Origin: Halorubrum coriense DSM 10284 | GTDB lineage: Archaea > Halobacteriota > Halobacteria > Halobacteriales > Haloferacaceae | Direction: 5' to 3' | DNA: 37,979 bases | NCBI RefSeq assembly: GCF_000337035.1 | Contig: NZ_AOJL01000063.1 | Location: forward strand, 1 to 37,979 | Notes under the pieces: generated by a model | Told to the model about the DNA's origin: nothing | Database searches by the model: none | Seen by the model: only the letters and a program-made list of their open reading frames with translations | Shown: positions 1,394-19,660 of the stretch, one piece after another | Numbering within the stretch: the stretch's first letter is position 1 | Layout of the letters: the number at the start of each line of letters is the position of its first letter | Made by a program: the position numbers and the translations under genes

Positions 1394-1569
1394 CGTATAC
1401 ACTTAGAACCGGGCAGGAAAAAAACAACAGCCGTCTCGGTTACGACCAAGATCAGACGGCGGCTCATGCGGAGCCGTTTAGGAGAGAGCCTAGAACGAAT
1501 CATCCCCAACCAAGTGGTCGACAGCGTCATGTCATCGGATACTTGTGCGCGAGAGCGCTACCCCAGTTA

Positions 1570-3474: not shown

Positions 3475-3596
3475 CTTTCGGCCAGAGGTTTTGTTGGCAC
3501 GCCAGCCCGGCTCTCCCCTACTCCCCGGACGCCAGTCTCCCTTATTAGCGATCAAGCTCGTCTGGGTGGTGTGCTCAACATAACTCTAGACATAAT

Positions 3597-3728
3597 CAAC
3601 AATTTCGCTACATTGTTGCGTACCATGACGCGATTTCTACCGTCACAGCACTCAACATAGTTGATGGTGTGTTTCAATTGTTGAACCGCATCAGTAAATC
3701 TTAGTATCATAAGAACCGACCACCACTA
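3597..3728 (+). promoter_or_regulatory. promoter region of the CARDB/MacB-like operon with two inverted repeats
   Basis: Upstream of the ATG at 3729 there is a TATA-like TAAATCTTA at 3695-3703, the right distance for a leaderless mRNA. Two inverted repeats precede it: CAACAAT (3597-3603) with ATTGTTG (3612-3618), and TTCAATTGTTGAA (3673-3685), which lies just upstream of the TATA box where an operator could act. Their role is inferred from position. The rest of 3475-3728 shows no gene. Confidence 0.4.
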
Positions 3729-4934
3729 ATGCGTAGGTCCCTCCCCTCCCGACTGGTACTGGCCCTTCTCGTTTTGAGCAGCACAGGCGTGGTCGCAGCA
3801 ACCGCCAGTGGCCCGGCTGTCCAACTATCGTCAGTAGCAGTAACACCTGACGATCCAACCACTGGCGAACAAGTCACAATCGAAGCTACCATCTCTAACC
3901 TCGAAAATAGTGATTCAATCGTCGATGTTACTGACATCTATGTCCGATCAATAGGGACTACACAAGAGTTTGACCGCATCGAGAATATTGGATCAGTCTC
4001 TCCTGGTGGGTCCCTCTCTGTTCCAATCTCAGCAACGTTTGAGACACCTGGTTAAAAACAGTTGGCAATCAACCTTGTTGTACAAGATGCCAATGGCAAG
4101 TATCACTCGTACACCTATCCAGTTTATATTGAGGTGTCTGAGCCGAAGGTGAAAGCTGATCTGTCAGCAACAGCTCCACAAAACGATTCTGGGATGATCG
4201 AGGTCTCACTGACGAACTTTGGCAACACTGACCTCACCGATGTTGAGGTTACTGCCACAGCTAATGGTAACGTCCTCGACCGCAACTTTGTCCGTGACGT
4301 GTCACCTGAGTCCAACCGAGTTACCGCCTTTGACACGAGCGGCGTTGTATCAGATACGGTCGAGTTTACCGCGACGTACAACGCTGCTGGCGACAGTTAC
4401 TCTACATCGCTTGCCACCAACGTCAACGAAGAGACTCAAGTTCCCGGTGAAATTCGGCTCACCGCGGTTGAGGTCTCACGTGCCGGGTCCGGAGTAATGA
4501 TCGAAGGTGACGCTGCGAATCTTGGCGGCACCGACGTTGATTCTGTGCTCGTCCAGATCAACGATACTGCTGATGTCCAACCCGTGTCCCCGTCGGGTGA
4601 ATACTTCGTTGGTGGCGTGGAGGCCAGCGAGTTCGCCACATTTGAACTCACCGCAGAGACCGAGTCAAACGCTTCATCGGTTCCTGTCGCCATCACGTAT
4701 ATCGTTGATAACGAGCGTGTGACAACGACACAGAAGGTTGACTTGACGGGTGCCTCCATATCTGCGGGCAGCGGCTCGGCGCCTGGTGACGGCGTTGCTT
4801 CCGGCGCCGACGCGTCTGGCCCCCGTGCCGGATCCGCTGGCCCCGGTGGACCTCCGCTCTGGCTTATTGCTGGCGGTATCGCAGTTATCACCATTCTCCT
4901 CGGCGGTGTAGCCTACAGGTGGCGCAGCCGATGA
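3729..4934 (+). pseudogene. exported CARDB-like surface protein, interrupted by in-frame TAA
   Basis: The frame encodes a secreted, membrane-anchored protein of 401 aa if the internal stop is read through. It has a signal peptide (RLVLALLVLSSTGVVAATA), beta-rich repeats typical of COG1361/CARDB-like haloarchaeal surface proteins (segments such as VEVSLTNFGNTDLTDVEVTA), a Gly/Ser/Ala/Pro linker, and a C-terminal helix PLWLIAGGIAVITILLGGVA followed by RWRSR. A TAA at 4053-4055 (codon 109) splits it; the downstream part stays open in the same frame and can restart at TTG 4062. One base change would explain this. It overlaps the next gene by ATGA, so it belongs to the ATPase/permease operon and may have been its periplasmic-side partner. 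Sequencing error or stop readthrough is not excluded. Confidence 0.75.
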
Positions 4935-5596
4935 GTGTCATTGTACTTGAGGATGCGATAAAGCGGTACCAAACCGGCGGAGAAGTCATTGAGGCGCTGG
5001 CTAGTGTCAACTTTCGTGCCGATCGCGGCGAGATGGTTACAATCATCGGCCCCTCTGGCTCGGGCAAGAGTACGTTGCTGAATATGATTGGGCTACTCGA
5101 TACGCCGACAGCTGGACGTGTCCGGCTCAACGGGCGTGATGTCACAGACTTTTCTACGGATGAACTAACCGAAGAACGGCGATCTGACATTGGGTTCGTC
5201 TTTCAAGATTATCACCTACTTCCGATGCTCACAGCGACCGAAAATGTAGAACTGCCAACAATGTGGGACACCGAGGTTGACAGACGTGACCGGGCTGTTG
5301 AATTGCTCAACCGCGTTGGACTTAGTGACCGACTGACACACAAGCCTCCTCAACTATCCGGTGGCCAGCGCCAACGAGTCGCCATTGCGCGTGCATTAGT
5401 CAACGAACCGGATGTTCTTCTTGCGGACGAGCCGACTGGTAACCTCGACCAAGACACCGGAGCGACAATCTTAGATGAATTAACGAGGCTCAAAGAAAGC
5501 GAGAACATTGCTATTGTGGCAGTCACTCACGACGAGCAGTTAGTCGAGTACTCTGATCGGATTGTTGAGTTAGTTGACGGGAGTATCAACACATGA
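4931..5596 (+). CDS. ABC transporter ATPase, MacB/LolD type
   Basis: A 221-aa cytoplasmic ATPase subunit of a MacB/LolCDE-type system. It carries Walker [16 protein letters not shown], the Q-loop VFQDYHLLP, the signature [16 protein letters not shown], Walker [13 protein letters not shown] and H-loop VTHDEQ. The 'ADEPTGNLD' form is characteristic of the LolD/MacB group. The ATG at 4931 overlaps the stop of the CARDB gene (ATGA); a GTG at 4919 is less likely. It also overlaps the following permease by ATGA, so translation of the three genes is probably coupled. MacB-type systems work mechanically on extracytoplasmic substrates; the substrate here is unknown. Confidence 0.92.
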
Positions 5597-6738
5597 GCAG
5601 ACGACATCCTCTGCGGCGATTTCCCAGCGCATTGATGGCGTGGCGGAATCTTGGCCGTAATCGAGTTCGGACCGCTCTCGCGACACTCGGCATCCTGATT
5701 GGCGTTGTTGCGATCGCATCGCTGGGAATGGCTACGGCCGCAATCCAACAACAAGCTACCGCAAATCTTGAGGGGTTATCAAACGAGGTGACAGTCTCTG
5801 CAGGGCCGGACAACCCCAATGACGGAATCTCCGCTGAGCAGGTTGATGATATTGAGCGACTTGCAGGTGATGCAACAGTGGTACCCGAGCGGAGCAATGT
5901 GACAACACTCTCTGCTCGGAATGGGGCTGAAACACGCGTTAGGGTAACCGCGCTGACGAAGGCGGATACAATGTATAATATCTCTCGAGGACGCATCTCA
6001 AACCGTTTCCGGTCAGGGGCGTTACTCTCTCAGGCAGATGCCAGACGGCTTGGGATTGAGATTGGTGATCCGGTTACCTACGACGGAAAACTTTATCGCA
6101 TTCAAGGAATCCTCTCGTCATCTCAGGGCCTCGGCGGTCAGCGGCGAGTACTCGTGCTACCACTCTCGGCAATGAGTGATCAGAATTATTATGATTCGGT
6201 AACTGTTTTGGCGGAACCTGGGCAATCAGTAGAGGCTCTTACAGCCGACATCGAATCGTCATTCAATACTGCTGACGAAGACATTATTCGTGTTCGAAAC
6301 TTTGCTTCGGTACAGCAGAACGTTGGATCATTTCTGGGTACGCTCCGGCTCGGGCTTCTTGGCATTGGGTCAATTTCGTTGGTGGTTGCGAGCGTCGCGA
6401 TTCTCAATGTGATGCTGATGAGTACCGTCGAACGGCGGGGAGAAATTGGTGTTCTCAGAGCTGTCGGCATCACGCGTGGCGAAGTTCTTCGAATGATCCT
6501 TACCGAAGCGGTGTTCCTCGGTGTAATTGGCGGCGTGTTGGGAGTCGTCGTTTCCGCCGGTATCGGTGTAGTATTGTTTGAATTCCTGGTGGGGAGCCCA
6601 CTGAATGCATTCCGCTGGCAAAGCGTACAATACCTCCTCTATGGCATGGTGTTTGCCGTTGCTGCAAGTTCGATTAGTGGGTTGTATCCAGCATGGAAAG
6701 CAGCAAATGAACGACCCGTTGAGGCACTTCGAGACTGA
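5593..6738 (+). CDS. ABC transporter permease, MacB/FtsX family
   Basis: A 381-aa permease with the MacB topology: one N-terminal helix (TALATLGILIGVVAIASLG, about residues 27-45), a large extracytoplasmic MacB_PCD-like domain (about 50-235), and three C-terminal FtsX helices (around LLGIGSISLVVASVAILNVM, then about 295-325 and 340-365). The motif STVERRGEIGVLRAVGIT between helices 2 and 3 is typical of the family. It starts inside the ATPase stop codon (ATGA). It forms the membrane part of the preceding ATPase; with the CARDB protein it makes a three-gene set common in haloarchaea. Confidence 0.92.
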   Translation: MSRRHPLRRFPSALMAWRNLGRNRVRTALATLGILIGVVAIASLGMATAAIQQQATANLEGLSNEVTVSAGPDNPNDGISAEQVDDIERLAGDATVVPERSNVTTLSARNGAETRVRVTALTKADTMYNISRGRISNRFRSGALLSQADARRLGIEIGDPVTYDGKLYRIQGILSSSQGLGGQRRVLVLPLSAMSDQNYYDSVTVLAEPGQSVEALTADIESSFNTADEDIIRVRNFASVQQNVGSFLGTLRLGLLGIGSISLVVASVAILNVMLMSTVERRGEIGVLRAVGITRGEVLRMILTEAVFLGVIGGVLGVVVSAGIGVVLFEFLVGSPLNAFRWQSVQYLLYGMVFAVAASSISGLYPAWKAANERPVEALRD

Positions 6739-6773
6739 TCTCACACATTGAAACCCGACCTAAGTGTGCCTAT

Positions 6774-7110
<337 letters not shown>

Positions 7111-7198
7111 GAATCGCTCAGTACAGCCAGTCTATACGGATAATCGTCCCGTGATGATCTGTCGATCCGGCGATTAAAAATCGAGGCGTCGTTCGCCC

Positions 7199-8422
7199 TC
7201 AATCTAGGTGGACGAGCGGCGATGTTTCACGGACGAAAACGGCCCGATCGAATTCACTGAGATCGGGGGGTGTGTACCTCACGGGGTTGTCGCCATCGGG
7301 AGTACCGCCCCAGATGGTGTGTCGCCGTGGTTGCGTCCGGGGCCAGTCCCGAATCGACAAATCGTCGTAGAGGTCCTCAACCGACACAGAAAACACTGGC
7401 TCCGCTACCTGCTGAAACACCGCTGGAATCGACATCGATGGCGGGTCCGGGATAGGATACTCTTCAACTGTTTCCGTTGTGAAGTCCTTGGCAGCTACCC
7501 TCCTAGTCCCGGTTTTGAAGACGACCGGGTAGTACAGGTCACCGTACGAGTCGGCGAGCCGGTTCCCCATCGACGGAACATCCACGTCCCATTCGTCGAG
7601 GACGTGTCTGCCCCGGCCGAGATGTGCGTTGACCCCCCAGATGACGACCGGACCTGTCGAGCGGTCATGGATCCACTTGACGTTCTCGGCCATCGCCTCG
7701 TCTCGAAGCGCGTGCCGATCTTCCCGACCGAGTTCGTGAGCTTCGATTTGTACCTCAATGAGGTTGAGTCGGTGTCGAACGCGTTCGTACGCCCGACGGG
7801 ACTCCGCCTCGACCCACGCCGACTCGTTGGCGTCAAGCATCGGCGATACAATCGAATGTACCTGTCGTGCGCTTTCGAGCAGCGCCTGGCGTTCGTCCTC
7901 AGATTCGTAACCGGTCTTCATGGTGTCGAGATCCTCGCGGAGCGACCCATCGATATCAGCGCCGACACGGTTGAGGTACGGCTCGATTCCGATGGCCGCG
8001 TCCTCAATGATAGTCGTATCGAACCCGTAGACGTGGACGTGGTCTTCAGCCGGACGCTCGGCGTTGACTGATTGTAGCCATTCGAGCAATTCGGCTACGG
8101 GCGCAGTTTGTATCGGGCGGTAGCCATCCGTTCCGGTGAGAATCGAGCGAATATCGCTCGTGCCGGTTGTAACTCCCTCGTCGATCCGACAGAACTGGTG
8201 GAACGGCGCTTCGAAAGCAACCGCCCGAAGCCCGAACTCCTCAACGAGCAGTCGTATGAGCCGGAATCGTAGTTCGGCGAGCTCCTCCATGTCGACACTG
8301 TCATCGACGTTCATCTCGCGCGTGTGGATTTCGAAGATGTCCTCGCGTCCCTCTTCATCAGCCGGCGGCACCTCCATCAGCCGGTCGAACCGACCCGGAC
8401 GGAGGATAGCGTCATCGAGCAT
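7199..8422 (-). CDS. chimeric ORF: AAA-ATPase tail fused to truncated erythromycin esterase
   Basis: A 407-aa open frame made of two unrelated parts. Residues about 1-48 ([20 protein letters not shown] and on) are the end of the AAA module of proteasome-activating nucleotidase. From about residue 49 ([20 protein letters not shown]) the frame is the C-terminal four fifths of an erythromycin esterase-like hydrolase, including [22 protein letters not shown] and [17 protein letters not shown]. The first part of the esterase, which should carry the GE(A/S)THG segment with catalytic residues, is missing. It is therefore probably a non-functional relic of recombination rather than a designed fusion. 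The listed start is only the first ATG after the nonsense codon of the PAN fragment. Confidence 0.6.
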
Positions 8423-8800
8423 GTCGAGACGGTTCGTCGCAGCGATGATCCGGACATCCCCGCGGTCGTTGAAGCCATCCAGTTCAGCGAGGAGCTACAT
8501 GAGCGTCCGCTGGACTTCAGCATCACCCGACGTCTTCGAGTCGGTACGCTTGGGCGCAATCGCGTCGATCTCGTCGATGAACAGCACCGACGGACCGTGT
8601 CGCGGGCGATCTCGAAGAGGTCTCGGACTAGCTTGGAGCCCTCACCAATGAACTTGTGGACGAACTCGGAACCAGCCATCCGAACAAACGTCGCGTCGGT
8701 CTCGTTGGCGACGGCCTTCGCGAGCATCGTCTTGCCCGTCCCCGGCAGACCGTGAAGGAGCACGCCACTCGGAAGGGACCACCGAGCGTGCCGAACGAGC
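8281..8800 (-). pseudogene. proteasome-activating nucleotidase fragment, frameshift and nonsense
   Basis: An internal piece of a PAN-type AAA ATPase. Walker A is readable ([20 protein letters not shown], with L where PAN usually has P), followed by the pore segment [10 protein letters not shown] one-base deletion near 8600 moves the frame just before Walker B ([15 protein letters not shown]). A TAG at 8495-8497 replaces the expected Gln codon in [13 protein letters not shown]. Sensor 1 (RIIAATN) and the arginine finger region (RPGRFDR) follow and run into the esterase fragment. The N-terminal coiled coil and OB domain and the C-terminal helices are absent. The remaining sequence is well conserved, so decay looks recent. 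Confidence 0.8.
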
Positions 8801-8889
8801 CTACGCGGAACGGCTGAAGTCAAATAGCGACGACCGGTCACGGGAATCACAAATAACGGATTTGGATACAGACGGGTCGGGCTAGTGTA

Positions 8890-9285
8890 TCACTCGTCAC
8901 CACTACAGACGAGAACGGGGCGTTCGGCATCAAGAATGACGCTCTGGGTGACGCTGCCGAACAGGACCTTCCCAGTAGGCGATCGCTTCCGGCCAGCGAC
9001 GACGATTTGATCGGCGTTGTGGTTGTCGGCAACATTGAGTATCGCTCGAGCCGCGTCGCCGCCATAGCCTTCGGGCCTCACCTCGATCCCAGCTTCCTCA
9101 AGCCGAGACTGAGCGACTCGGACCGACTTGACTTGTTCGACAGTGCCGCCCTCCCTGTTTTCGCTGAACGCGTGGACAAGCACCACTTCTACATTGTCCG
9201 ATTCGAGTGGCATCGACGCAATCGTCTCAGCCTGTGTTCTGGCACGCTGCTCGTCCGTGTCGATACCGACAAGAAATGTGAACAT
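8890..9285 (-). CDS. universal stress protein UspA family
   Basis: A 131-aa single-domain Usp. It opens with FTFLVGIDTDEQ and ends with the nucleotide-binding signature of the ATP-binding subclass (VVAGRKRSPTGKVLFGSVTQ, about residues 94-113) before the last strand RPVLVCSG. Such proteins are cytoplasmic dimers that bind ATP; the specific role here is unknown. It lies divergent from the Liv operon, with 157 bp between them. Confidence 0.88.
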   Translation of the reverse strand: MFTFLVGIDTDEQRARTQAETIASMPLESDNVEVVLVHAFSENREGGTVEQVKSVRVAQSRLEEAGIEVRPEGYGGDAARAILNVADNHNADQIVVAGRKRSPTGKVLFGSVTQSVILDAERPVLVCSGDE

Positions 9286-9442
9286 GGGACGACCGTCGCA
9301 GCACTCTCATTTGTTTGTTTCGACGGACTCGGTTGCGCTGGCCGCCGCTCGTGGGCAATGATGAGCCGGGTAACTGCCCGCATGCGAGTGAATTTATCCC
9401 TAATAATTATGTAGTACGTGCCTCTGTGAGCATGTAGAACAC

Positions 9443-10726
9443 ATGTCACATAATAACATGAAAGAGTCAGAGAGACTGTACCGACGACGGGACGTAGTAA
9501 AAACCGGTACCGCGGGAATAGCAATGCTGGCGTTCGCCGGGTGTATTGGCGGCGGCAGTGACGGCGATGATGGCGGAGGCGGCGGCGGAATCGGAGCCGA
9601 TTCAGTCATGATCCCAGGGATCTACGACGAGAGTGGAGCGACTTCAGACGTCGGCCGCCCGACGGCAATCGGCTCTCGGGACACGATCACGTACATCAAC
9701 GAGAATGGCCTGCTAGACGCGAGCATTGACCACCCGAACAATGATTACGCCTACGAGGTGCCACAGGCCCAGCAGTACTACCAGCAGTACACCTCGGATT
9801 CGTCGCCACCGCTGATCATCGGCTGGGGAACTGCTGACACCGAGGCGCTGGCGGGCACTGTCGCGGAAGACGAGGTTGTCTACGTCTCGGCATCGTACTC
9901 CGCGAACCTCGTCACCGAAGAGTTCCCGTACAACTTCTTCGGCAACCTCGATTACACGAGTCAGGCCCGCGCACACTTGCGGTGGATCGCAGACAACGAC
10001 CCCGAAGCGACGGTTGGGTTCATTTTCTCGAACACGGCTTTCGGCCGGTCGCCCGTGGAGGGCGGCAAGGAGTACGCTGAGGAGCTTGGACTCGACGTAG
10101 CTCCGGACATCAACCTCCCGCTGACCGCCAACTCTGCGACCACACAGCTCAGGCAGGCCAGAGACCAAGATATCGATTATCTCATCCACCAGAACACGTC
10201 CGCGCCGATGCGGGTGCTCTTAGAGGATCGACAGGACATCTACCCCGAGCTGACGGTGTGTGGCCTGACCTACACCGTCGACGAACGGGTGGTCCAGCAG
10301 TCTCCCGACATTTTCGAGGGTGTCCGATACGTCAATGCGTTCCGCACGTTCCAAGGTGCTCTGGATAGCGGTGGCCGGGGTGCCGATATCATCGAAGCCA
10401 ACTTCGAGCGCGAGGGGCGCAGCATGGACGATCCTGAGGTCGCCCAACTCAACTACGTACGTGGTGTGATCCATGCGCTGTTGATGCTGAAAGGCATCCA
10501 GAACGCTGCTGAGGCCGGAAACGACCCGACGAGCGGGCCGAACGTCAGACAGGGGATGTTCGGGATAGAGGATGACAACATGTTCGATCTCGCCGAGCCG
10601 TTCAGCTTCGCCGAAGACGATCGCCGCCCGACGATGAACGGGCGGCTGTTTGAGGTCACCGACGGCAGCTTGAGCTTCGATACCACCGTCGAACTGCCCC
10701 GCCGCGACTCGTGGATCGGTCTGTAA
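9443..10726 (+). CDS. branched-chain-type ABC transporter substrate-binding lipoprotein (LivK-like)
   Basis: A 427-aa periplasmic-binding-protein-like lipoprotein. The N-terminus has a twin-arginine motif (RRRDVVKTG), a hydrophobic stretch and a lipobox Cys (LAFAGC), then the Gly/Asp-rich linker usual for haloarchaeal lipoproteins, so Tat export and lipid anchoring are expected. The rest is a Peripla_BP_6 fold (for example VMIPGIYDESGATSDVGRP at the start, and TVGFIFSNTAFGRSP). It captures the ligand for the permeases encoded downstream. The ligand class is unknown; the adjacent CoA ligases suggest a carboxylic acid rather than an amino acid. ATG 9443 is chosen; ATG 9458 is also possible. An AT-rich box (ATTTATCCCTAATAATTATG) lies at about 9390-9410. 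Confidence 0.9.
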   Translation: MSHNNMKESERLYRRRDVVKTGTAGIAMLAFAGCIGGGSDGDDGGGGGGIGADSVMIPGIYDESGATSDVGRPTAIGSRDTITYINENGLLDASIDHPNNDYAYEVPQAQQYYQQYTSDSSPPLIIGWGTADTEALAGTVAEDEVVYVSASYSANLVTEEFPYNFFGNLDYTSQARAHLRWIADNDPEATVGFIFSNTAFGRSPVEGGKEYAEELGLDVAPDINLPLTANSATTQLRQARDQDIDYLIHQNTSAPMRVLLEDRQDIYPELTVCGLTYTVDERVVQQSPDIFEGVRYVNAFRTFQGALDSGGRGADIIEANFEREGRSMDDPEVAQLNYVRGVIHALLMLKGIQNAAEAGNDPTSGPNVRQGMFGIEDDNMFDLAEPFSFAEDDRRPTMNGRLFEVTDGSLSFDTTVELPRRDSWIGL

Positions 10727-11568
10727 TGGCAACGAACAAACCCACAACTGAGGCTGCGGCCGAAGAGAGTGAACCACCGGTCGTCGAACTCGACAACGTC
10801 GAAATCGTCTATGACCGGCACTTCCTCGCGGTTCAGGGAGTATCGATGTCGGCCGACGAGGGTGATATCGTCGCGCTGCTCGGTCCCAACGGTGCGGGGA
10901 AATCGACGATATTGAAGATGATCAGCGGTATCGGGCGGAGCGAGCGGGGCGAAGTAACTCGTGGCCGCGTCTTCTTGCGTGGCGAGGATGTGACCAATGA
11001 CGGCGCAAATGAGATGGTCCAGCGCGGCATCACACACATTCTCGAAGGCAGGCGAGTGTTCGAGGATCTTACCGTTGAGGAGAACCTCCGATGTGGGCTC
11101 TACCGGCAGGGCCGCAGATTTCGGTTCAACGAGGACGACTACCAGATCGCCTTCGAGTACTTCCCGCAACTGGAGGATATCATGGACCTCAAAGCCGGCT
11201 ACGCCAGCGGTGGGCAACAACAAATGCTCGTTATCGCTCGGGCACTCATCCACCGGCCAAACCTGCTCCTGTTAGACGAGCCGTCGCTCGGTCTCGCGCC
11301 AAAGCTGGTCCGTGATATCTTCGAGACGCTCGTGGAGATCAACAGACAGGAAGACATCACGATGCTCATCGCAGACCAGAACGCCAAGCGCACACTCGAG
11401 ATCGCTGACTACGGCTACGTCATGGAGAACGGCCAAATCGAACTCCATGACCCCGCCGACGAGCTCGTCGAACGCGAAGAGATCAAAGAGTTCTATCTCG
11501 GCACGTCAGGTGAGAACTCGCGCTACACCGATGTGAGACACTACAAGATCCGCAAGAGGTGGACCTGA
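10726..11568 (+). CDS. branched-chain-type ABC transporter ATPase (LivF-like)
   Basis: A 280-aa cytoplasmic ATPase with Walker A (LLGPNGAGKSTILKM), a signature of the LivF form (ASGGQQQMLVIARAL), Walker B (LLLLDEPSLGLAP) and the family marker ITHILEGRRVFEDLTVEENL. The start ATG at 10726 overlaps the stop of the binding-protein gene (TAATG); an upstream GTG at 10711 is less likely. The C-terminal tail after EFYLG is about 22 residues longer than the usual LivF end and is basic (YKIRKRW). It pairs with the next gene to power the importer. Confidence 0.93.
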   Translation: MATNKPTTEAAAEESEPPVVELDNVEIVYDRHFLAVQGVSMSADEGDIVALLGPNGAGKSTILKMISGIGRSERGEVTRGRVFLRGEDVTNDGANEMVQRGITHILEGRRVFEDLTVEENLRCGLYRQGRRFRFNEDDYQIAFEYFPQLEDIMDLKAGYASGGQQQMLVIARALIHRPNLLLLDEPSLGLAPKLVRDIFETLVEINRQEDITMLIADQNAKRTLEIADYGYVMENGQIELHDPADELVEREEIKEFYLGTSGENSRYTDVRHYKIRKRWT

Positions 11569-12401
11569 TGAGCGTCGACGAGGGGCCCGAAGCGCGCGCA
11601 GCGTCACTCAGAAGCGGAGCGCACGTGCTCCCGGAAGATGCCGCGATCGGTTGCCGAAACGTGACCAAGACGTTCGGCTCGATCACCGCCGTGGACGACG
11701 TCGAACTCGGTATCGCCGATGGCGAGTGGGTATCTATTGTTGGGCCAAATGGTGCCGGGAAGACAACGCTGTTGAATATCCTCAATGGTTTCTATACCCC
11801 CGACCCTGGGAGCGAGGTATTCCTAAATGGTGAGGAGGTCAGCGGCAAGCCAGAACACTACCGCGCTCGACGTGGCATCGGTCGGACTTTTCAGGGGTTA
11901 GAGCTGTTCGAGAGCGAGGACGTCTTAGAGAACGTGATGACGACTCGAGCTGTCGCCGAACGCCCAAACATTCTCTCGGCGCTGCTGTACTATGGCACTG
12001 GCCAGAAGACGGAGGCTGAAAACATGCGGTTCGTCGAGGAGATTCTCGACTACCTCGAACTCTGGGAGTACCGTCACACGACCGTCTCGACCCTACCACT
12101 AGGCGTCCAACGGCGCGTCGACCTCGGGCGGTCGCTCGCGCTCGAACCGGACGTACTCCTGCTCGACGAGGCGATGAGCGGGCTCACCTTCGACGAGAAG
12201 TACGACATGATCCGGTTCCTGACTGACCTCCACGAGGAGGAAGGGCTGACGCTCGTGATGATCGAACACGATCTCGAAGTTGTCACTGCGGTCTCCGAAC
12301 GGATGATCGTCATGCAGAAGGGCGGCGTCATCGCTCGAGGACCGCCAGACCGAGTGACAGACGACCCCGAGGTCGCCCGCGTTTACACGGGGGTTGATTA
12401 G
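11568..12401 (+). CDS. branched-chain-type ABC transporter ATPase (LivG-like)
   Basis: A 277-aa ATPase subunit with Walker A (IVGPNGAGKTTLLNILNGF), the LivG marker RRGIGRTFQGLELFESEDVL, Walker B (VLLLDEAMSGL) and H-loop (MIEHDLEVV). The signature region reads TLPLGVQRRVDLGRSLA in place of the usual L-S-x-G-x-Q, so the second ATP-site half is atypical. The start ATG 11568 overlaps the previous stop (TGATG). An N-terminal extension of about 30 residues precedes the ATPase fold. It stops one base before the acyl-CoA synthetase ATG. Confidence 0.92.
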   Translation: MSVDEGPEARAASLRSGAHVLPEDAAIGCRNVTKTFGSITAVDDVELGIADGEWVSIVGPNGAGKTTLLNILNGFYTPDPGSEVFLNGEEVSGKPEHYRARRGIGRTFQGLELFESEDVLENVMTTRAVAERPNILSALLYYGTGQKTEAENMRFVEEILDYLELWEYRHTTVSTLPLGVQRRVDLGRSLALEPDVLLLDEAMSGLTFDEKYDMIRFLTDLHEEEGLTLVMIEHDLEVVTAVSERMIVMQKGGVIARGPPDRVTDDPEVARVYTGVD

Positions 12402-14480
12402 ATGGCGACCGACAACGCCGAAAGTGAGGGCATTGCGTCAAGCGTCTCCGACGACTCGGGGCTGTCCGTAGAACGTGTCCTGACTGCACCAGAAGGCGAG
12501 TCGGTGCCAATTGTCTCTAACCGTGCGCTCCCCGAGATTCTCATCGACCACGCTGCCGAACACCCCGATGACATCGCGTTACGGTGGAAGCGGTATGGCG
12601 TCTGGCAGGAGTTCACTTGGGAGGAGTACTATGATCGGGTGGAGCAGTTCGCGCTCGGCTTAGAAGAGTACGGGTTCGGGGAGGAGGACATCTTATTCAC
12701 CATCGGGTATAACCGGCCCCACCAATTGTGGGCGTGGATCGCCGCGCAGTCACTTGGCGGGATGGCCGCCCCGAACTACGAGGACATGCTGCCCGAGGAC
12801 ATCGAGAAGCAACTCCAGTTGCTCGAACCCGAGGTGGTGTACGCGGAAGACCAGGAGATGGTCGATAAACTCCTCCTCGTCTCAGACAACGTGCCATCGT
12901 TGTCGACTATCATATACCGGGACGACAAGGGCATGTTCCGGTACGAAAACGGCGAGAAGACAGAGCCCGGCGACCCCGAAATCGTCGCTTACGAGGATAT
13001 CGAAGAGCGAGGCCGCAAGCGTCGCGAGTCCGGAGGCGTGAGTGACGACTACCTTGTGTCCAAGATCGAAGAGGTGCCCACGGAGGCAACTGCGATGCTC
13101 GCGCCTACCTCGGGGACGACAGGGATGCCGAAACGCGTTCGGCTCTCTCATTTCAACCTCGTAAACCTCGCGAATGCTGCTATCGATATCGACCCGCTGC
13201 CGAAGGAGTCAGACTACTTCTCGTACCTTCCGATGGCGTGGGTGGGCGAACAGATGATTCTCCTCGCGGCCGCGTTCGTCGCAGGTTGGACCGCGAATTT
13301 CCCCGAACAGCCTGAAACGGAAGAGGAGGACCTCCGAGAGATTGGCCCGGAGATCATCTTCTCATCGCCAAAGCGATACGAGGCGTGGGTTGCGGATATC
13401 AAGGCGAAAATCGAGAATACCACTCGATTCAAGCGCTGGGTGTACGAGAAGGCAATGAGAATCGGCGAACGGTACGCCGAGTACGTCATCGGCGACAAAA
13501 ACGACAAGGAGCCGCCGGCATGGCTGCGTGGAGCACACTGGCTGTCACATTGGGTAGCGTACCGGCCGATCCTCGATAAGGTCGGGCTCAAACGCGCGAA
13601 AAATGTCTATACCGGCGGCGGCCCACTCGGAGAAGACCACTTCGAGTACTACCACTCGATGGGCGTGCCGCTCAAACAGATCTGGGGGCAGTCTGAGGTC
13701 TGTGGGTTTGTAACGATGCACCGGGACGATGACGTTCAGGTGGAGACTGTCGGAGAAGTGTTCCCGAACGTCGAAGTGGGCATCACACCGGGCGGCGAAC
13801 TGCTTGTCCGCGGCCCGGTCGTTACCGCTGGCTACTACGGGATGCCTGAGAAAACCGAGTCGGCATTCGAAGACGGCTGGCTCCATACCGACGACTTCGG
13901 CGCGCTCACCGACGACGACCACGTGCGGATCTTCGACCGGATGGACGACGTGTTAGAGATGGCCGACGGCACCCCTGTGGCACCGATTAGTGTCGAGACG
14001 AAGTTGAAGTTCAATCCGTATGTGAAGGAGGCGATGGTCGTCGGCGACGACCGCACCGAACTCACTGCGGTCTTGAACATTCGATACGACAACGTCGCCG
14101 AGTGGGCCGACCAGCGGGACATCCAGTATGCGGGCTACAGCGACCTGACGCGGAAAGAACCGGTTTTAGAACTCTTGCGTGGCGTCGTAGCGGAGACCAA
14201 CGAAGACCTTGACAATCCCATCCGGCGGTTCGTTCTGCTATTCAAGGAGTTCGACGCCGACGACGGAGAACTTACTCGCACCGGGAAACTCCGCCGCGAG
14301 GTCGTCGTGGACCGGTACGGGGACCTCGTGACAGCCCTGTACGACGGCAGCGACCAGATAGAAATGGAACTCACGATCACGTACCAAGACGGCAGAGAGT
14401 CCGAAGAGCGCGGCGTTATGCGTATCGTCAATGTGGATCAACCCGTTCTCAACGGCGGACCCGACCTGGAGGTGAGCTGA
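12402..14480 (+). CDS. long-chain/aromatic acyl-CoA synthetase (AMP-forming)
   Basis: A 692-aa ANL-superfamily ligase that converts a carboxylate, ATP and CoA to acyl-CoA via an acyl-adenylate. The P-loop is APTSGTTGMPK (about residues 231-241), the A5-type motif IWGQSEVCGF, the A7/A8 region DGWLHTDDFG and FDRMDDVLEM, and the C-terminal catalytic lysine segment LTRTGKLRRE (about 624-633). Its size and the helical insert (about 310-400) resemble the FadD15-like long-chain group. It sits between livG and livH with no spacing on either side, so it is translated as part of the importer operon. This layout points to activation of the imported substrate. Confidence 0.92.
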   Translation: MATDNAESEGIASSVSDDSGLSVERVLTAPEGESVPIVSNRALPEILIDHAAEHPDDIALRWKRYGVWQEFTWEEYYDRVEQFALGLEEYGFGEEDILFTIGYNRPHQLWAWIAAQSLGGMAAPNYEDMLPEDIEKQLQLLEPEVVYAEDQEMVDKLLLVSDNVPSLSTIIYRDDKGMFRYENGEKTEPGDPEIVAYEDIEERGRKRRESGGVSDDYLVSKIEEVPTEATAMLAPTSGTTGMPKRVRLSHFNLVNLANAAIDIDPLPKESDYFSYLPMAWVGEQMILLAAAFVAGWTANFPEQPETEEEDLREIGPEIIFSSPKRYEAWVADIKAKIENTTRFKRWVYEKAMRIGERYAEYVIGDKNDKEPPAWLRGAHWLSHWVAYRPILDKVGLKRAKNVYTGGGPLGEDHFEYYHSMGVPLKQIWGQSEVCGFVTMHRDDDVQVETVGEVFPNVEVGITPGGELLVRGPVVTAGYYGMPEKTESAFEDGWLHTDDFGALTDDDHVRIFDRMDDVLEMADGTPVAPISVETKLKFNPYVKEAMVVGDDRTELTAVLNIRYDNVAEWADQRDIQYAGYSDLTRKEPVLELLRGVVAETNEDLDNPIRRFVLLFKEFDADDGELTRTGKLRREVVVDRYGDLVTALYDGSDQIEMELTITYQDGRESEERGVMRIVNVDQPVLNGGPDLEVS

Positions 14481-15434
14481 ATGGTCAACTGGGTCACGTT
14501 CCTCGACATCTCATTGAGCGGTCTCGGTTTGGGCGCGTTGTACGCGCTCGTGGCGATGGGCTTCTCGCTCATCTACAAAGTGACCGGGGTTCTGAACTTC
14601 GCGCAGGGGCAGATCGCAATGGTCGGCGCGTACGGCGTCGTCATCTTTGGAACGGCCACCGTACTCCCGGCGGCAATCCCGGCGTGGGCCGCAGTACTTG
14701 TGACGGTCTTGCTCGGGGTCGTGCTCGGGCTGGCGCTCGAACGCGTCGTCTTCCGTCAGTTCATCGGCGAACCGGTGTTGTCGGTTATCATCGTGACGCT
14801 GGCGCTCGGCAGTATCCTCGAAGGAGTCATCTTCTTCTTGTACGGCCAGAACGCGCAGGCGTATCCGGGGGCACTGACGCTCGGCGGGCAGCTCAGTCTC
14901 CCGCTCGGGACGTCGATACAGGCGGCGTACGCCGTCGCCGTCGCCATCGCGTTGATCGTCGTCGCCGTGTTAATGCTCTTTTTCCGCCAGACTGTCACGG
15001 GATCGATTCTTCGGGCGTCGGCAAGCGACGAGCAAGCCGCGATGGTGCTCGGCGTCTCCATCGAGCGCACTATCGCGCTCGCATGGACGCTCTCTATCGC
15101 TATCACCGCACTCGGCGGCATCCTACTGGCGACCTCCAGCGGCGGGGCAGCGGTCTCCATCGAGAACACGGGGATAATCATCTTTGCCGCCGTCGTGTTA
15201 GGCGGCCTAGACAGCATTCCCGGGGCGTTCATCGGCTCGATTGTCGTTGGCGTCTTACAGGAACTGGGCTCGTACTATCTCGTCGGCGGCACCGCGGTGT
15301 ACGTCCCGTTTACGAACATTCAGGCCAACTTCGGCGCGGGCTTCGGCGAGATTCTTCCTCTCATCCTCCTGCTCGTCGTCATTCTGGTGAAACCCTATGG
15401 CCTGTTCGGCACCGAGCGGATAGAGAGGCTCTAA
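14481..15434 (+). CDS. branched-chain-type ABC transporter permease (LivH-like)
   Basis: A 317-aa membrane protein with about eight predicted helices. The N-terminus has the LivH signature (GLGALYALVAMGFSLIYKVT, then GVLNFAQGQIAMVGAYG), the conserved RASASDEQAAMVLGV cytoplasmic loop that contacts the ATPase, and the late motif VLGGLDSIPGAFIGSIVVG. ATG 14481 follows the synthetase stop directly. It forms the translocation pore with the next permease. Confidence 0.94.
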   Translation: MVNWVTFLDISLSGLGLGALYALVAMGFSLIYKVTGVLNFAQGQIAMVGAYGVVIFGTATVLPAAIPAWAAVLVTVLLGVVLGLALERVVFRQFIGEPVLSVIIVTLALGSILEGVIFFLYGQNAQAYPGALTLGGQLSLPLGTSIQAAYAVAVAIALIVVAVLMLFFRQTVTGSILRASASDEQAAMVLGVSIERTIALAWTLSIAITALGGILLATSSGGAAVSIENTGIIIFAAVVLGGLDSIPGAFIGSIVVGVLQELGSYYLVGGTAVYVPFTNIQANFGAGFGEILPLILLLVVILVKPYGLFGTERIERL

Positions 15435-15521
15435 AGATGAACAGACACAACTCATGCGTCACGCGGCGCTTAGGAGAGGTACCGACGACTCGAACGGTTG
15501 CGATCGACGGGAGGTGGTCGC

Positions 15522-16568
15522 ATGCCCTGTGGTGAGTACTTCACCGACTACGAGTCGCGAATGGGGCTCGTTCGGTGGCGGACACAAAAGATAGCGCTTG
15601 CGTTGGGACTGCCAATCCCATTCATCGCGCCGTTCCTCCTCGGCGGGGGAACCGTGACGCTACTGACGCAGGCGTACATCTTCACAATTGCGGTGTTGGG
15701 GCTGAACGTTATCCTCGGCTATGCCGGTGAGATTGTGCTCGCACAGGGCGCGTTCATGGCCATCGGCGCGTACAGCACGAGCAGACTACTCGCCGTTGGG
15801 GCGGGGCTGTTACCGGCGCTCGCCGTCGGTGGAATCATCTCCGCGTCGGTCGCAGTCGGCTTCGGCCTGCCATCGTTCCGTGTCAAGGGGTTCTACATCG
15901 CCATCTCGACGCTGGCGCTCCAGTTCATCGCCGAGGAATGGTTCTTCGTGAACCCTCAGCTCGCGTTCATCCACGGCGGGACGACCCAGTCTCTCCCCTC
16001 GAATGTGGGGGTCGTCGGACCGGTCGGTGCTCTCGGTACGACCATCGACAAGTATCTGCTCGCACTGGTGTTGTTGTTGGCGTTCGCACTGCTGTCGCTG
16101 AACCTCTCTCGGACCGGCATTGGGAAGACGTTCCGCGCGATTCACGAGAACGACCTTTCAGCGTCCGTCCTCGGTGTAAATGTATTTAAGAACAAGCTGC
16201 TCGCGTTCGCTATTGGTGGCTTCATGATTGGCGTCGCGGGCGGCATGTTCGGATTCCAGATTGGCTTCATCAACGCCGAGTACTTCACACTCGGACTGAC
16301 GCTCGAACATTACGTCATGCTATTGTTCGGCGGCCTCGGGCGGGTGTGGGGAGCGCTGCTTGGCGTTGGCGTCGTCACGCTCGTTCAGGACTACCTCAAT
16401 GAGGGGTTGAATTACCTTGCCGATCTCACCGGAACAAACTCGACGGCGCTGCTGCCGGTGTTCTTCGGCGCGATCATCATCGTTGTGCTTGCCGTCGAGC
16501 CGAAAGGGGTGTTAGCCGGGCTCGGCAAGATCAAGGAGTACTTGCGTACGTGGCCGTTCGCGTACTGA
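15522..16568 (+). CDS. branched-chain-type ABC transporter permease (LivM-like)
   Basis: A 348-aa membrane protein with about nine helices. Family motifs include LNVILGYAGEIVLAQGAFMA, the ATPase-contact loop FRAIHENDLSASVLGVNVF and LLFGGLGRVWGALLGVGVV. The frame is open from TTG 15498, but ATG 15522 has a good Shine-Dalgarno sequence (GGAGGT at 15510-15515) and gives a compact N-terminus. Unlike the rest of the operon it is separated from livH by 87 bp, which contain a 32-codon frame (15437-15535) overlapping this start. Confidence 0.92.
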   Translation: MPCGEYFTDYESRMGLVRWRTQKIALALGLPIPFIAPFLLGGGTVTLLTQAYIFTIAVLGLNVILGYAGEIVLAQGAFMAIGAYSTSRLLAVGAGLLPALAVGGIISASVAVGFGLPSFRVKGFYIAISTLALQFIAEEWFFVNPQLAFIHGGTTQSLPSNVGVVGPVGALGTTIDKYLLALVLLLAFALLSLNLSRTGIGKTFRAIHENDLSASVLGVNVFKNKLLAFAIGGFMIGVAGGMFGFQIGFINAEYFTLGLTLEHYVMLLFGGLGRVWGALLGVGVVTLVQDYLNEGLNYLADLTGTNSTALLPVFFGAIIIVVLAVEPKGVLAGLGKIKEYLRTWPFAY

Positions 16569-16642
16569 ACGCGACGGCCCACACCCTTCGGCTCAACGAG
16601 ATGCCGAGTACGCCCATCATCGTTGCTGCCACGCCGGTGACG

Positions 16643-16655
16643 GAGATTTATGTGT
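16643..16655 (+). promoter_or_regulatory. TATA-like box of the PaaK-like gene
   Basis: GAGATTTATGTG lies about 27 nt upstream of the ATG at 16678, the spacing expected for a haloarchaeal leaderless transcript. It suggests that this gene has its own promoter in addition to any read-through from the Liv operon that ends at 16568. Confidence 0.45.
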
Positions 16656-16677
16656 CAGCTTGTCGTGTGTTAACGTG

Positions 16678-17844
16678 ATGTACAACACTACCACCCTCTC
16701 GGCAGTCAAAGAGCAGCTAGAACAGGTCGCCGGCCGTGACTTTTATGCGCAGAAATTCGCGGACGCGGGCACTGACCCGGCAGCAGTCGACTCGTGGGAC
16801 GACTTCCGATCGCTTCCGTTCACGACGGCGGCAGAACTCGAGAATGACTTCGAGGATGCCCCACCGGCTGGATCGTTGTACGACGGCGCGGCGATGGTCA
16901 CGTTCTCGCCGATGGGTGAGGAGCTGCGACCTGTCTTCGACACGGCAGACGACCTCGAAAAGCAGGCCGCTGCCAATGCAGACGTGCTCGAACGCGCCGG
17001 GATCGAACAAGGCGACCGTGTTGTCAACACGTTCGGCTATGAACTGTTCGGCACCGGGTACGTGCTCCACCGAGCGCTCGAACACCTCGGGGCAGAGGTG
17101 TTCCCGCTTGGTCCTGGTGACTCTGATCAGGTCGCTGCGACCATTGAGACGTACGACGTGGACGCCATCGTGGGCAACCCGAGCTTCGCACTGAAAATCG
17201 GTGCCGAAGGTGGGTCGGTCGATACCTTTGTCGGCGCGGGCGAGCCATTCACTTCCGTTCCGGGCCGTCGCGAAGCGGTCAAGGATGCACTTGACGCGTC
17301 CACGGCAGTGGACTACTTCGGCACGCGACACATCATGCCCGTAGCTGCCGAGACTACAGCCGAAAACGGACTCCGAGTCGTCGATGACTACGCAGTCGTA
17401 GAAGTTGTGGACCCAGACACAGGCGACGTGTTAGATGACGGTGAGCGCGGGGAAGTCGTGGTGACGCACCTTCAGAAAGAGGGGATTCCGCTGGTACGCT
17501 ACCGGACCGGCGACCTCGCCGAACTCGCCGTCGAAGACGGATCCGTGGTGTTACCCGACGGTGTCATCGGCCGCACAGACGAGCGGCTGAAAGTCAAGGG
17601 CGTGAAAGTGTATCCGGAGAGCATCGAGACAGTTCTGGCCGGTTTTGACGGGTTGACTGGGTCATACCGTGTCGAAGTGTCACAACCAGAGACCACCGAT
17701 CGACTCGTCGTAGTCTGTGAGGGTGAAGCCGACGCCGACGAACTACGTGCGGCGCTCGCCGACCGCCTCGTTGTGACACCGGACGCCGTCGAACTGGTCG
17801 CGGATCTCGACGAGACCGGTATCGTCGACAACCGGTACGAGTGA
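16678..17844 (+). CDS. PaaK-like adenylate-forming protein lacking the P-loop
   Basis: A 388-aa relative of phenylacetate-CoA ligase. The C-terminal half keeps PLVRYRTGDLAEL (about 272-284) and GRTDERLKVKGVKVYPESIE (about 298-317), the lid/hinge region of PaaK. The N-terminal part FYAQKFADAGTDPAAV and DDFRSLPFTT is also PaaK-like. At residues about 76-86, where PaaK has a SSGTTGKPT phosphate-binding loop, this protein has FSPMGEELRPV. The usual YG(L/M)(S/T)E segment reads FGTRHIMP. It may be a non-adenylating paralogue or work differently. ATG 16678 was chosen over TTG 16660 because of the TATA spacing. Its stop codon abuts the mobile element at 17845. Confidence 0.82.
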   Translation: MYNTTTLSAVKEQLEQVAGRDFYAQKFADAGTDPAAVDSWDDFRSLPFTTAAELENDFEDAPPAGSLYDGAAMVTFSPMGEELRPVFDTADDLEKQAAANADVLERAGIEQGDRVVNTFGYELFGTGYVLHRALEHLGAEVFPLGPGDSDQVAATIETYDVDAIVGNPSFALKIGAEGGSVDTFVGAGEPFTSVPGRREAVKDALDASTAVDYFGTRHIMPVAAETTAENGLRVVDDYAVVEVVDPDTGDVLDDGERGEVVVTHLQKEGIPLVRYRTGDLAELAVEDGSVVLPDGVIGRTDERLKVKGVKVYPESIETVLAGFDGLTGSYRVEVSQPETTDRLVVVCEGEADADELRAALADRLVVTPDAVELVADLDETGIVDNRYE

Positions 17845-18216
17845 CCTCCTCCTCGCGGTAAACGGTTAGGCTTCCCACGGCACCGCACCACTGAGTTGAG
17901 ATATTTGCTGGTTTACGACCTGTCGGCATGACGAGCCGATGGCGGGGCCACACCGCCGTTACTCCTATCCCGGCGAGGGATTCGGAGTTATCTTGTGACC
18001 GAGACACCACAGCGGTTCGAGATGGGTGTCTCGAACGTTCTGGGCCTCGGAATCCCGATACTGTGTATTTGAGAGGGCGGTGTGACCGCCTCGGAGTACA
18101 TCATGTTACGCCACGATACCAGTTAAATATCTGTCTTGCTGTCGGTTGCGGATACATCCGAGTTGTCGGATTCACTCCCGCCGTAAACGCGGAATTCTCT
18201 CCTCGAAGAAAGATAG
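17845..18216 (-). mobile_element. 372-bp non-autonomous IS200/IS605-like element (MITE)
   Basis: On the minus strand it begins with a left end (18216 to 18162; hairpin near 18178-18192) and ends with a right end (hairpin around 17851-17868, tip at 17845). The left end matches 39-94 and 30971-31024. The right-end part, about 125 bp, matches 31023-31145. No tnpA or tnpB can be read. A TATA-like ATATTTAACTGG near 18120-18130 precedes a 38-codon frame (about 18104 to 17991, MMYSEAVTPPSQIHSIGIP and on) that I do not recognise. It fills the space between two convergent genes, touching the stop codon of the first and lying 11 bp from that of the second. Confidence 0.65.
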
Positions 18217-18227
18217 CTTGGCAGGGG

Positions 18228-19070
18228 TCAATCGTTGCCAAGGAAGCGCTGCGCGGTCCGTGAAAAGATGTCGCGCTGGACCTCAACCGAGAGGTCCCGT
18301 GAGAGCAGGTGTTCTCGCTCCCGAGCATAGGGGTATGGGATGTTCGGATAGTCTGACCCGTACATGATCGACGTCGAGAGTTCAGCCAGCGTGTCGTCGG
18401 AGACCGTCGTCGGGTCGAAGTCCATGTACGTCTTGGCCACGCTCGACATGGCGAAGGTGGTGTCGAGAAAGACATTGTCGTTGTCGCGGGCGAGGTTGAG
18501 GAACGCCTCAATCTCATATGTACCCATGTGAGCAACACACACCCGTATATCCGGGTAGGAGGCGAGAAACGACTCGAAGCGCTCAACGCCGACGTGGGGG
18601 CTGTCCGTGAACATCGGTGCTGTCCCGGCGTGGAGCACAACCGGCGCGTCGCGGGCGGCGACAACTTCGTAGGCGGGACCGAGGCGGGGGTCGTCGGCTC
18701 CAAACCCCTGTACTGGGAGCTGGAGCTTCAAGCCACACGCGCCGGCGTCGAAGGCGTCGGTGACAACTGCCTCCACATCGTCGGCAGCGTGGACGGTGGC
18801 AAACGGGACCGCGTGGTCTGAGTCTGCGGTGGCTTCTATCACCCACTCGTTAAGATCGGCCGCCGCCCCCGAACGCGCGACGTACGGGAGTGCGGTATAT
18901 TGCTCGACGCCCGCTGTAGTCAGTGCTGCTTCCATCTCGTCGCGGTCGGTCGGATGGTTGAACTCCCAGCCGGCGGCGTCGCTGAGCGCCTCACGGATTG
19001 CGGCCATCAGCCGCTCCGGCATCAGGTGAACGTGCGCGTCTACGACATCACCGATGGGAAACTCAGCCAT
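18228..19070 (-). CDS. metal-dependent amidohydrolase (amidohydrolase_2 family)
   Basis: A 280-aa TIM-barrel enzyme. The N-terminal metal motif is VVDAHVHLMPERL (H13, H15), a conserved mid-barrel His lies in VVLHAGTAPMF, another in VCVAHMGTYE, and the C-terminal Asp in IMYGSDYPNIPYP. This pattern is that of the amidohydrolase_2/ACMSD group, which hydrolyses or decarboxylates cyclic and aromatic-derived substrates. ATG 19070 overlaps the stop of the upstream thioesterase gene by 8 bp, so the two are co-translated. The reaction is not determined by sequence. Confidence 0.87.
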   Translation of the reverse strand: MAEFPIGDVVDAHVHLMPERLMAAIREALSDAAGWEFNHPTDRDEMEAALTTAGVEQYTALPYVARSGAAADLNEWVIEATADSDHAVPFATVHAADDVEAVVTDAFDAGACGLKLQLPVQGFGADDPRLGPAYEVVAARDAPVVLHAGTAPMFTDSPHVGVERFESFLASYPDIRVCVAHMGTYEIEAFLNLARDNDNVFLDTTFAMSSVAKTYMDFDPTTVSDDTLAELSTSIMYGSDYPNIPYPYAREREHLLSRDLSVEVQRDIFSRTAQRFLGND

Positions 19071-19536
19071 CGGTAAGCTTGTAGACGCCCGTACCGGTCG
19101 CACAGACGGTGCCTTCGGACTCGACTTCGACGCTTGCCACGCCGACATCGGTGCCGCGACGATCCACCGTAGCCGTCGCATACAGCGGTGCGCTGCCGGC
19201 AGCTTCGAGGTAGTTCACCCGGAGGTCGATAGTCGGCGTGTATGTTTCCCGGCCACCGACAAAGACGGCGGCACCGGTGAGGTCCACAAGTGCGCTGACA
19301 ACACCGCCGTGGACGGCACCGAGGTCTGGGTTTCCCACGAGTCCGAGGCCGAACGGCAGCTTTACCCTAGCACACTCGGGAGTTACTGAGAGCACCTCCA
19401 ACTCATGCCGTTGGTGGAAGGGAACGTCACCATACAGCCGCTCTACGACTGCCGTCCGGTCAGTCACGTCCGAACTTGCTGCCTGCTGCTGATCGCCCTC
19501 GCCAGCTTCCAGACCGGTCTCGCTCGGGTCGGGCAT
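19063..19536 (-). CDS. hotdog-fold thioesterase, PaaI family
   Basis: A 157-aa protein with the 4HBT/PaaI core: GLVGNPDLGAVHGGVVSALVDLTGAAV (family pattern HGG followed by the long helix) and TPTIDLRVNYLEAA, then the last strands ATATVDRRGTDVGVASVEVE. It hydrolyses acyl-CoA thioesters in characterised relatives, often aromatic-CoA dead-end products. About 35 acidic/Gln residues precede the fold. ATG 19536 is preceded by TTACTTTATGTGAG (about 19563-19576), a TATA box at a distance giving a very short leader. It shares this intergenic region with the divergent gene at 19661. Confidence 0.85.
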   Translation of the reverse strand: MPDPSETGLEAGEGDQQQAASSDVTDRTAVVERLYGDVPFHQRHELEVLSVTPECARVKLPFGLGLVGNPDLGAVHGGVVSALVDLTGAAVFVGGRETYTPTIDLRVNYLEAAGSAPLYATATVDRRGTDVGVASVEVESEGTVCATGTGVYKLTDG

Positions 19537-19660
19537 AAGTGTGATACTACACACCACGCCCTCACATAAAGTAACCGCCCAGCCCCCTACAGGGCGATAT
19601 AGCAACTATGGCAGGGTATCTGGGGCAACGGCTATGTGGTCACGGCCTACCTCTAATTAC

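Follow-up and report, generated by a model that had tools for sequence, protein, structure and literature searches.

What is an AMP-forming acyl-CoA synthetase (ACS) doing among the genes of a Liv/HAAT-family importer? The question is raised by a cluster in Halorubrum coriense DSM 10284 (NCBI RefSeq assembly GCF_000337035.1, contig NZ_AOJL01000063.1, positions 1 to 37,979; this whole stretch of 37,979 nucleotides is referred to as the window), in which livK, livF, livG, the ACS gene, livH and livM are read in one direction on the + strand and are followed by a PaaK-like gene, the product of which is here called PaaK'. The preliminary description of this DNA had reported the same run, with overlaps or no spacing except before livM, and the coordinates of the window's open reading frames (ORFs), with their Pfam and NCBIfam matches, agree with it. 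A Tat-type lipoprotein solute-binding protein is encoded by livK (9443..10726; PF13458, Peripla_BP_6, E 1.9e-35), which overlaps by 1 base the gene for a livF-type ATPase (10726..11568, ATG at 10726; PF00005; best NCBIfam match UrtE/LivF, below cut-offs), which in turn overlaps by 1 base the gene for a livG-type ATPase (11568..12401, ATG at 11568, GTG at 11559 possible; PF00005 and a weak BCA_ABC_TP_C match; best NCBIfam match LivG). The ACS gene (12402..14480; PF00501, AMP-binding, E 2.3e-50; PF23562, AMP-binding_C_3) follows with a gap of 0 bases, and the gene for a livH-type permease (14481..15434; PF02653, E 1.4e-34) follows it with a gap of 0 bases as well. A gap of 87 bases precedes the gene for a livM-type permease (15522..16568; PF02653, E 2.2e-33; ATG at 15522 behind GGAGG, TTG at 15498 possible), and 109 bases separate this from the gene for PaaK' (16678..17844, ATG at 16678), which motifs and a structural model identify as a protein of the PaaK fold that lacks the ANL phosphate-binding loop (P-loop).

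The importer gene set is complete within this one run (PF13458 once, PF00005 twice, PF02653 twice), and none of its Liv genes reaches an NCBIfam equivalog cut-off. Transporter and ligase form one conserved unidirectional cluster, as in operons of the mbd type, named after the mbdB1B2B3B4B5-mbdA operon of Azoarcus sp. CIB, which encodes a putative ABC transporter and a 3-methylbenzoate-CoA ligase (PMC4424350). The Halorubrum coriense genome was examined family by family and in stretches, and none of the other Liv clusters retrieved from it has a ligase between ATPase and permease genes; one of them (G000:C35, near 47436-54038, L086) adjoins an acyl-CoA dehydrogenase gene.

Could the ligase be there by chance? 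A scan for ACS relatives with one genome per species yielded 36 loci, 19 haloarchaeal and 17 bacterial, and this set was enlarged by plasmid loci and by stretches of four further haloarchaeal genomes, one of which is the same locus as L052. With the window included, livG lies directly before and livH directly after ACS in 22 of the 22 haloarchaeal loci that have both sides on the contig, the order being K-F-G-ACS-H-M. The livG-ACS-livH adjacency is also found in 22/31 bacterial loci; the order livG-ACS-livH-livM-livK-livF prevails there, often with PaaK' next. Most of the remaining bacterial loci contain the same genes reordered or are cut by a contig end; the order ACS-livG-livH-livM-livK-livF occurs in Peteryoungia, Xanthobacter and Aminobacter, and one Ramlibacter locus has no Liv genes near its ACS relative. 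In a phylogenetic profile of 391 genomes of the class, 20 have an ACS orthologue and 25 have the PaaK-like gene, with an overlap of 20 (hypergeometric P 3e-29, a value that ignores the relatedness of the genomes). The PaaK-like gene occurs without the cassette ligase in five genomes; in four of these a different AMP-forming ligase is encoded no more than a few kb away, and two of the four also have Liv genes nearby.

Chance neighbourhood is rejected on the basis of the conserved adjacency and of this co-occurrence (20/20 genomes). The comparison of gene order across haloarchaeal genomes that the preliminary description had proposed indicates that the ligase is a fixed component of the importer and not an accident of one genome. 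The Liv genes, ACS and the PaaK-like gene are a real, widespread unit common to haloarchaea and many bacteria. ACS is 94% identical to a gene of Hrr. ezzemoulense DSM 17463, and the distribution of the cassette within genera is sparse, suggesting an accessory trait that may have moved horizontally. One bacterial locus (L067, ~900-17462) carries two Liv and ligase clusters in tandem, livH-livM-livG-ACS-livF and then livG-ACS-livH-livM-livK-livF-PaaK'. Ten bacterial cassettes (L062, L066-L070, L072, L074, L075, L079) encode a conserved secreted protein of ~200 aa after livF, of which one member has a sub-threshold LEA_2 match; no such protein was seen in the haloarchaeal loci.

Is the embedded ligase intact? 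Its P-loop (TSGTTG..PK) and A10 Lys are kept in all 16 aligned members, and the alignment further reveals a conserved C-terminal ITYQDGR extension. The best NCBIfam match of ACS is FadD11, at 215 bits against a cut-off of 950, so that it falls outside the FadD11/long-chain ligases by this measure, and the best PDB matches of its profile include both 4-coumarate-CoA ligases and fatty-acyl-CoA ligases. On a tree, the cassette ligases form a group of their own, apart from other AMP-forming ligases, save for one misplaced long branch, the row L019_LACS, which is probably in a wrong reading frame and was disregarded.

The PaaK-like partner presents the opposite picture. Its AlphaFold model (pLDDT 86) has the PaaK fold, with 2y4o (PaaK2), 4r1l, 2y4n and 2y27 (PaaK1) as best Foldseek matches; it was modelled from residue 6 of the likely start (16693 vs 16678), which leaves the motifs unaffected, and the structure predictions were run without plasmid-derived rows. 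The SSGTTGKPT P-loop of E. coli PaaK is absent from 23 of 23 aligned sequences, namely the window PaaK' and 22 relatives. In the haloarchaeal members the A5 Glu is also gone, with His or Gln in its place, as is the A10 Lys, which several proteobacterial members retain at that position. The A7 motif is found in all aligned members and A8 in most. Neither of the two NCBIfam equivalog cut-offs for PaaK is reached (207 vs 700 bits, 163 vs 646 bits), and because the scores are this low and the P-loop is lost, PaaK' provides no evidence for phenylacetate as the substrate. A role for it as a working phenylacetate-CoA ligase is rejected, given the lost P-loop and the absence of the phenylacetyl-CoA epoxidase gene paaA from the genome.

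What, then, could PaaK' do? Because it is conserved in two domains of life, is nearly always found near an intact ligase and is loop-less, PaaK' is, as far as sequence can tell, best read as a non-adenylating partner that would be unable to hold the phosphates of ATP. Most likely it would serve as a helper, scaffold or sensor that binds acyl-CoA, acyl-adenylate or ACS itself. A more specific proposal, which is tentative and on balance doubtful, is that PaaK' is a dedicated pseudo-ligase that binds acyl-CoA or acyl-adenylate, but not the phosphates of ATP, and that docks on or regulates ACS, perhaps at the importer, thereby physically coupling transport to CoA activation. Four haloarchaeal genomes (L091, L092, L093, L094) have a more divergent loop-less PaaK-like protein near an AMP-forming ligase of a different clade, without the cassette ligase; since the pairing is found there with another ligase, it may be older than the cassette.

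The binding protein might be expected to say most about the substrate. LivK carries a twin-arginine (RR) motif and an AGC lipobox, and its AlphaFold model (pLDDT 84) has 3lkb as its top PDB match in Foldseek, followed by 3eaf, with further matches to TM1135, a urea binding protein, 4n03 (by its title the binding protein of a fatty acid transporter) and a protein that binds p-hydroxybenzoate. The first of these, 3lkb, is a Liv-type binding protein of Thermus thermophilus, the PDB title of which gives bound valine; it shares 60% sequence identity with the LivK of a Deinococcus cassette retrieved in the plasmid search, but just 21% with that of the window. In LBP, Glu226 is the ligand of the alpha-amino group. 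The LivK of the window has Thr278 at the aligned position, and those of Chloroflexota and Desulfomonile have mostly Asn, which would fit a ligand other than an amino acid, though 3lkb lacks the Glu as well in a profile alignment.

Taken together, the cluster is rather probably an import-and-activate module, that is, a carboxylate importer coupled to CoA activation. LivK would bind a carboxylic acid outside the cell, LivHM and LivFG would drive its ATP-dependent import, and ACS would convert it in the cytoplasm to its CoA thioester, leaving it trapped and committed to CoA-dependent catabolism, with PaaK' as a conserved, presumably non-adenylating member of the module. The coupling of a carboxylate to CoA had been proposed in the preliminary description, and it is favoured by the constancy of the ligase, by the frequent binding of carboxylates, in place of branched-chain amino acids, by Liv-type binding proteins (PMC3223731) and by the mbd operon (PMC4424350); the further proposal there, of aromatic or alicyclic acid use, is not supported. 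There is no paaA in the Halorubrum coriense genome by family search, PaaK' scores below the cut-offs and lacks the P-loop, and the bacterial contexts are those of branched-chain, carboxylase, mutase or beta-oxidation genes.

These contexts deserve a closer look. Around the window cluster lie a divergent gene for a universal stress protein (USP; 8890..9285, - strand; PF00582), which recurs in L044-L046, L052-L055 and L096-L099, a gene for an Amidohydro_2 family protein (18228..19106, - strand; PF04909, E 9e-28; weak match to the uncharacterised PDB entry 3irs), found in most haloarchaeal loci, and one for a PaaI-like hotdog thioesterase (19063..19605, - strand; TIGR00369 over cut-off), found in about half of them. 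Together with the PaaK-like gene, these three (USP, amidohydrolase and PaaI-like) are the only neighbours to recur in related loci. The preliminary description had drawn attention to amidohydrolase, PaaI, AhpD and aldehyde dehydrogenase (ALDH) genes, and all four exist, but the last two are not conserved neighbours: AhpD is shared with no more than the two nearest loci, and ALDH is missing even from that of Hrr. ezzemoulense (L044), so that both are rejected as parts of the system. Recurrent near haloarchaeal cassettes are genes for a BadH-like SDR, MaoC, CoA-transferase III and acyl-CoA carboxylase; the SDR adjoins PaaK' in Natronomonas, where it scores 288.7 bits against a cut-off of 431. 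The Halorubrum coriense genome itself encodes several acyl-CoA dehydrogenases.

Among the neighbours of the bacterial cassettes, enoyl-CoA hydratase is the commonest Pfam family, all such neighbour counts resting on crude ORF picking and being indicative only. On plasmids, these neighbours comprise acyl-CoA dehydrogenases, electron transfer flavoprotein (ETF), thiolase, biotin-dependent carboxylase and HMG-CoA lyase, the biotin carboxylase being found with acyl-CoA dehydrogenases and ETF, and the HMG-CoA lyase with a carboxylase. The Peteryoungia cassette lies amid genes for branched-chain keto acid dehydrogenase (BCKDH), mmsB, isovaleryl-CoA dehydrogenase and carboxyltransferase. On plasmid pXAUT01 of Xanthobacter autotrophicus Py2 (5729-18191, L105), genes for a B12 acyl-CoA mutase, a MeaB-type GTPase, a PaaI thioesterase, a loop-less PaaK, the ligase and the Liv proteins run in one direction, and the nearest solved relative of the mutase is 2-hydroxyisobutyryl-CoA mutase. 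This run would be a good system for identifying the substrate. The contexts and the lack of paaA point to aliphatic acids, probably branched ones, more than to simple aromatic acids, and our guess is a small or medium acid, probably branched or otherwise of the beta-oxidation type.

Several points weigh against an import-and-activate module for carboxylates. We know of no transport, binding or ligase assay for any member of the cassette. The neighbouring catabolic genes vary between lineages, and therefore no single substrate is implied. An amino acid-like ligand for LivK is possible because 3lkb is titled with valine and is so close to the Deinococcus cassette protein; a binding protein specific for branched-chain amino acids, which the preliminary description had named as grounds for refutation, is by this evidence neither established nor dismissed. 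Finally, growth of Azoarcus on 3-methylbenzoate depended on the expression of mbdA and not on the transporter genes (PMC4424350).

If valine is taken at face value, the cluster could be an ordinary importer of branched-chain amino acids, with the ligase of the operon recycling the branched acids made from them, a reading with which the Peteryoungia context is also in keeping. It is nevertheless quite improbable: LBP Glu226 is not conserved in the cassette LivKs (with the caveat already given for 3lkb), and an amino acid entering the cell has no need of an AMP-forming acyl-CoA ligase. Moreover, among the R. palustris COG0683 binding proteins that departed from their annotation, Giuliani et al. 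saw a shift with Leu, Ile or Val in only very few; the ligands of these proteins were amino acids of other kinds, aromatic acids, fatty acids and dicarboxylates (PMC3223731). There is another reading, in which medium- or long-chain fatty acids or dicarboxylates are imported in the manner of R. palustris RPA3723/3724 and ACS acts as a FadD-type ligase. FadD11 as best NCBIfam match, the resemblance of LivK to 4n03 and the beta-oxidation genes near bacterial cassettes are all consistent with it, but there is no evidence on chain length, 3lkb is a small-ligand binding protein, and the carboxylase and mutase contexts suggest branched acids, so that it appears rather unlikely.

An importer of aromatic or alicyclic acids, in which an aromatic carboxylate would be bound by LivK and then activated by ACS or by PaaK', has precedents in the Liv-type binding proteins for benzoate and hydroxycinnamates (PMC3223731, PMC3610893) and in the mbd operon (PMC4424350), and the BadH-like SDR beside PaaK' in Natronomonas and the PaaI-like thioesterase would fit. 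Besides the absence of paaA, the lost P-loop and the inconstancy of AhpD and ALDH, it has against it that ACS is nearer in NCBIfam to fatty-acid ligases (FadD11) than to aryl-CoA ligases, despite its 4-coumarate-CoA ligase matches in the PDB, and that the bacterial cassette contexts are mostly aliphatic; we consider it unlikely.

Two further features of the window were noted on the - strand. At 7199-8850, a fragment of an AAA ATPase (8377-8850, PF00004) adjoins, in a different frame, an ORF (7199-8422) that combines a proteasome-ATPase-like tail with an erythromycin esterase domain (PF05139, E 5e-43), and the region looks like a disrupted or fused remnant. At 29223-30065, a TnpB-like protein of 280 aa with a Cas12f1-like TNB domain (PF07282, E 1e-17) is probably truncated at its N-terminus.

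The conserved ligase within the operon sets apart a subclass of these importers, spread over haloarchaea and a number of bacterial phyla, that probably takes up organic acids, and it offers a direct assay for their substrate. The conserved loop-less PaaK-fold partner is a new element and raises the testable question of what role a dead PaaK has beside a live acyl-CoA synthetase. Should the pseudo-ligase proposal be true, this would be a previously unnamed system of importer, ligase and pseudo-ligase common to Archaea and Bacteria.

How does this cassette compare with known systems? In the literature searched, the coverage of which was partial, no description of the embedded ligase arrangement or of the loop-less PaaK partner was found; the coupling of Liv-type transporters to CoA ligases is already known in kind, because of the mbd operon and the carboxylate-binding proteins of R. 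palustris. The closest solved relative of LivK, 3lkb, differs in that its ligand was modelled as valine. PaaK' resembles PaaK (2y27, 2y4o) in its modelled fold (TM 0.71-0.80), at ~27% identity and with the A7 and A8 motifs, and differs from it by the missing P-loop and a shorter C-terminus and, in haloarchaea, by the missing A5 Glu and A10 Lys. In R. palustris, RPA3723-3725 beside pimFABCDE and hbaEFGHI between bad and hba are cases of carboxylate-binding COG0683 proteins near CoA ligase pathways, but with the ligase genes, as described, in separate neighbouring operons (PMC3223731). The p-coumarate system CouPSTU of the same species likewise has a carboxylate-binding protein of the LivK family and a CoA ligase, CouB, in the same region, but its substrates are aromatic and CouB is not embedded in the transporter operon (PMC3610893). 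The mbd operon, which combines an acid-CoA ligase with a putative ABC transporter of five parts for import followed by CoA activation, shares this logic, but mbdA comes last and has an extra promoter of its own (PMC4424350), whereas the ligase of the window cassette lies without spacing between ATPase and permease genes and is joined by a PaaK-fold partner.

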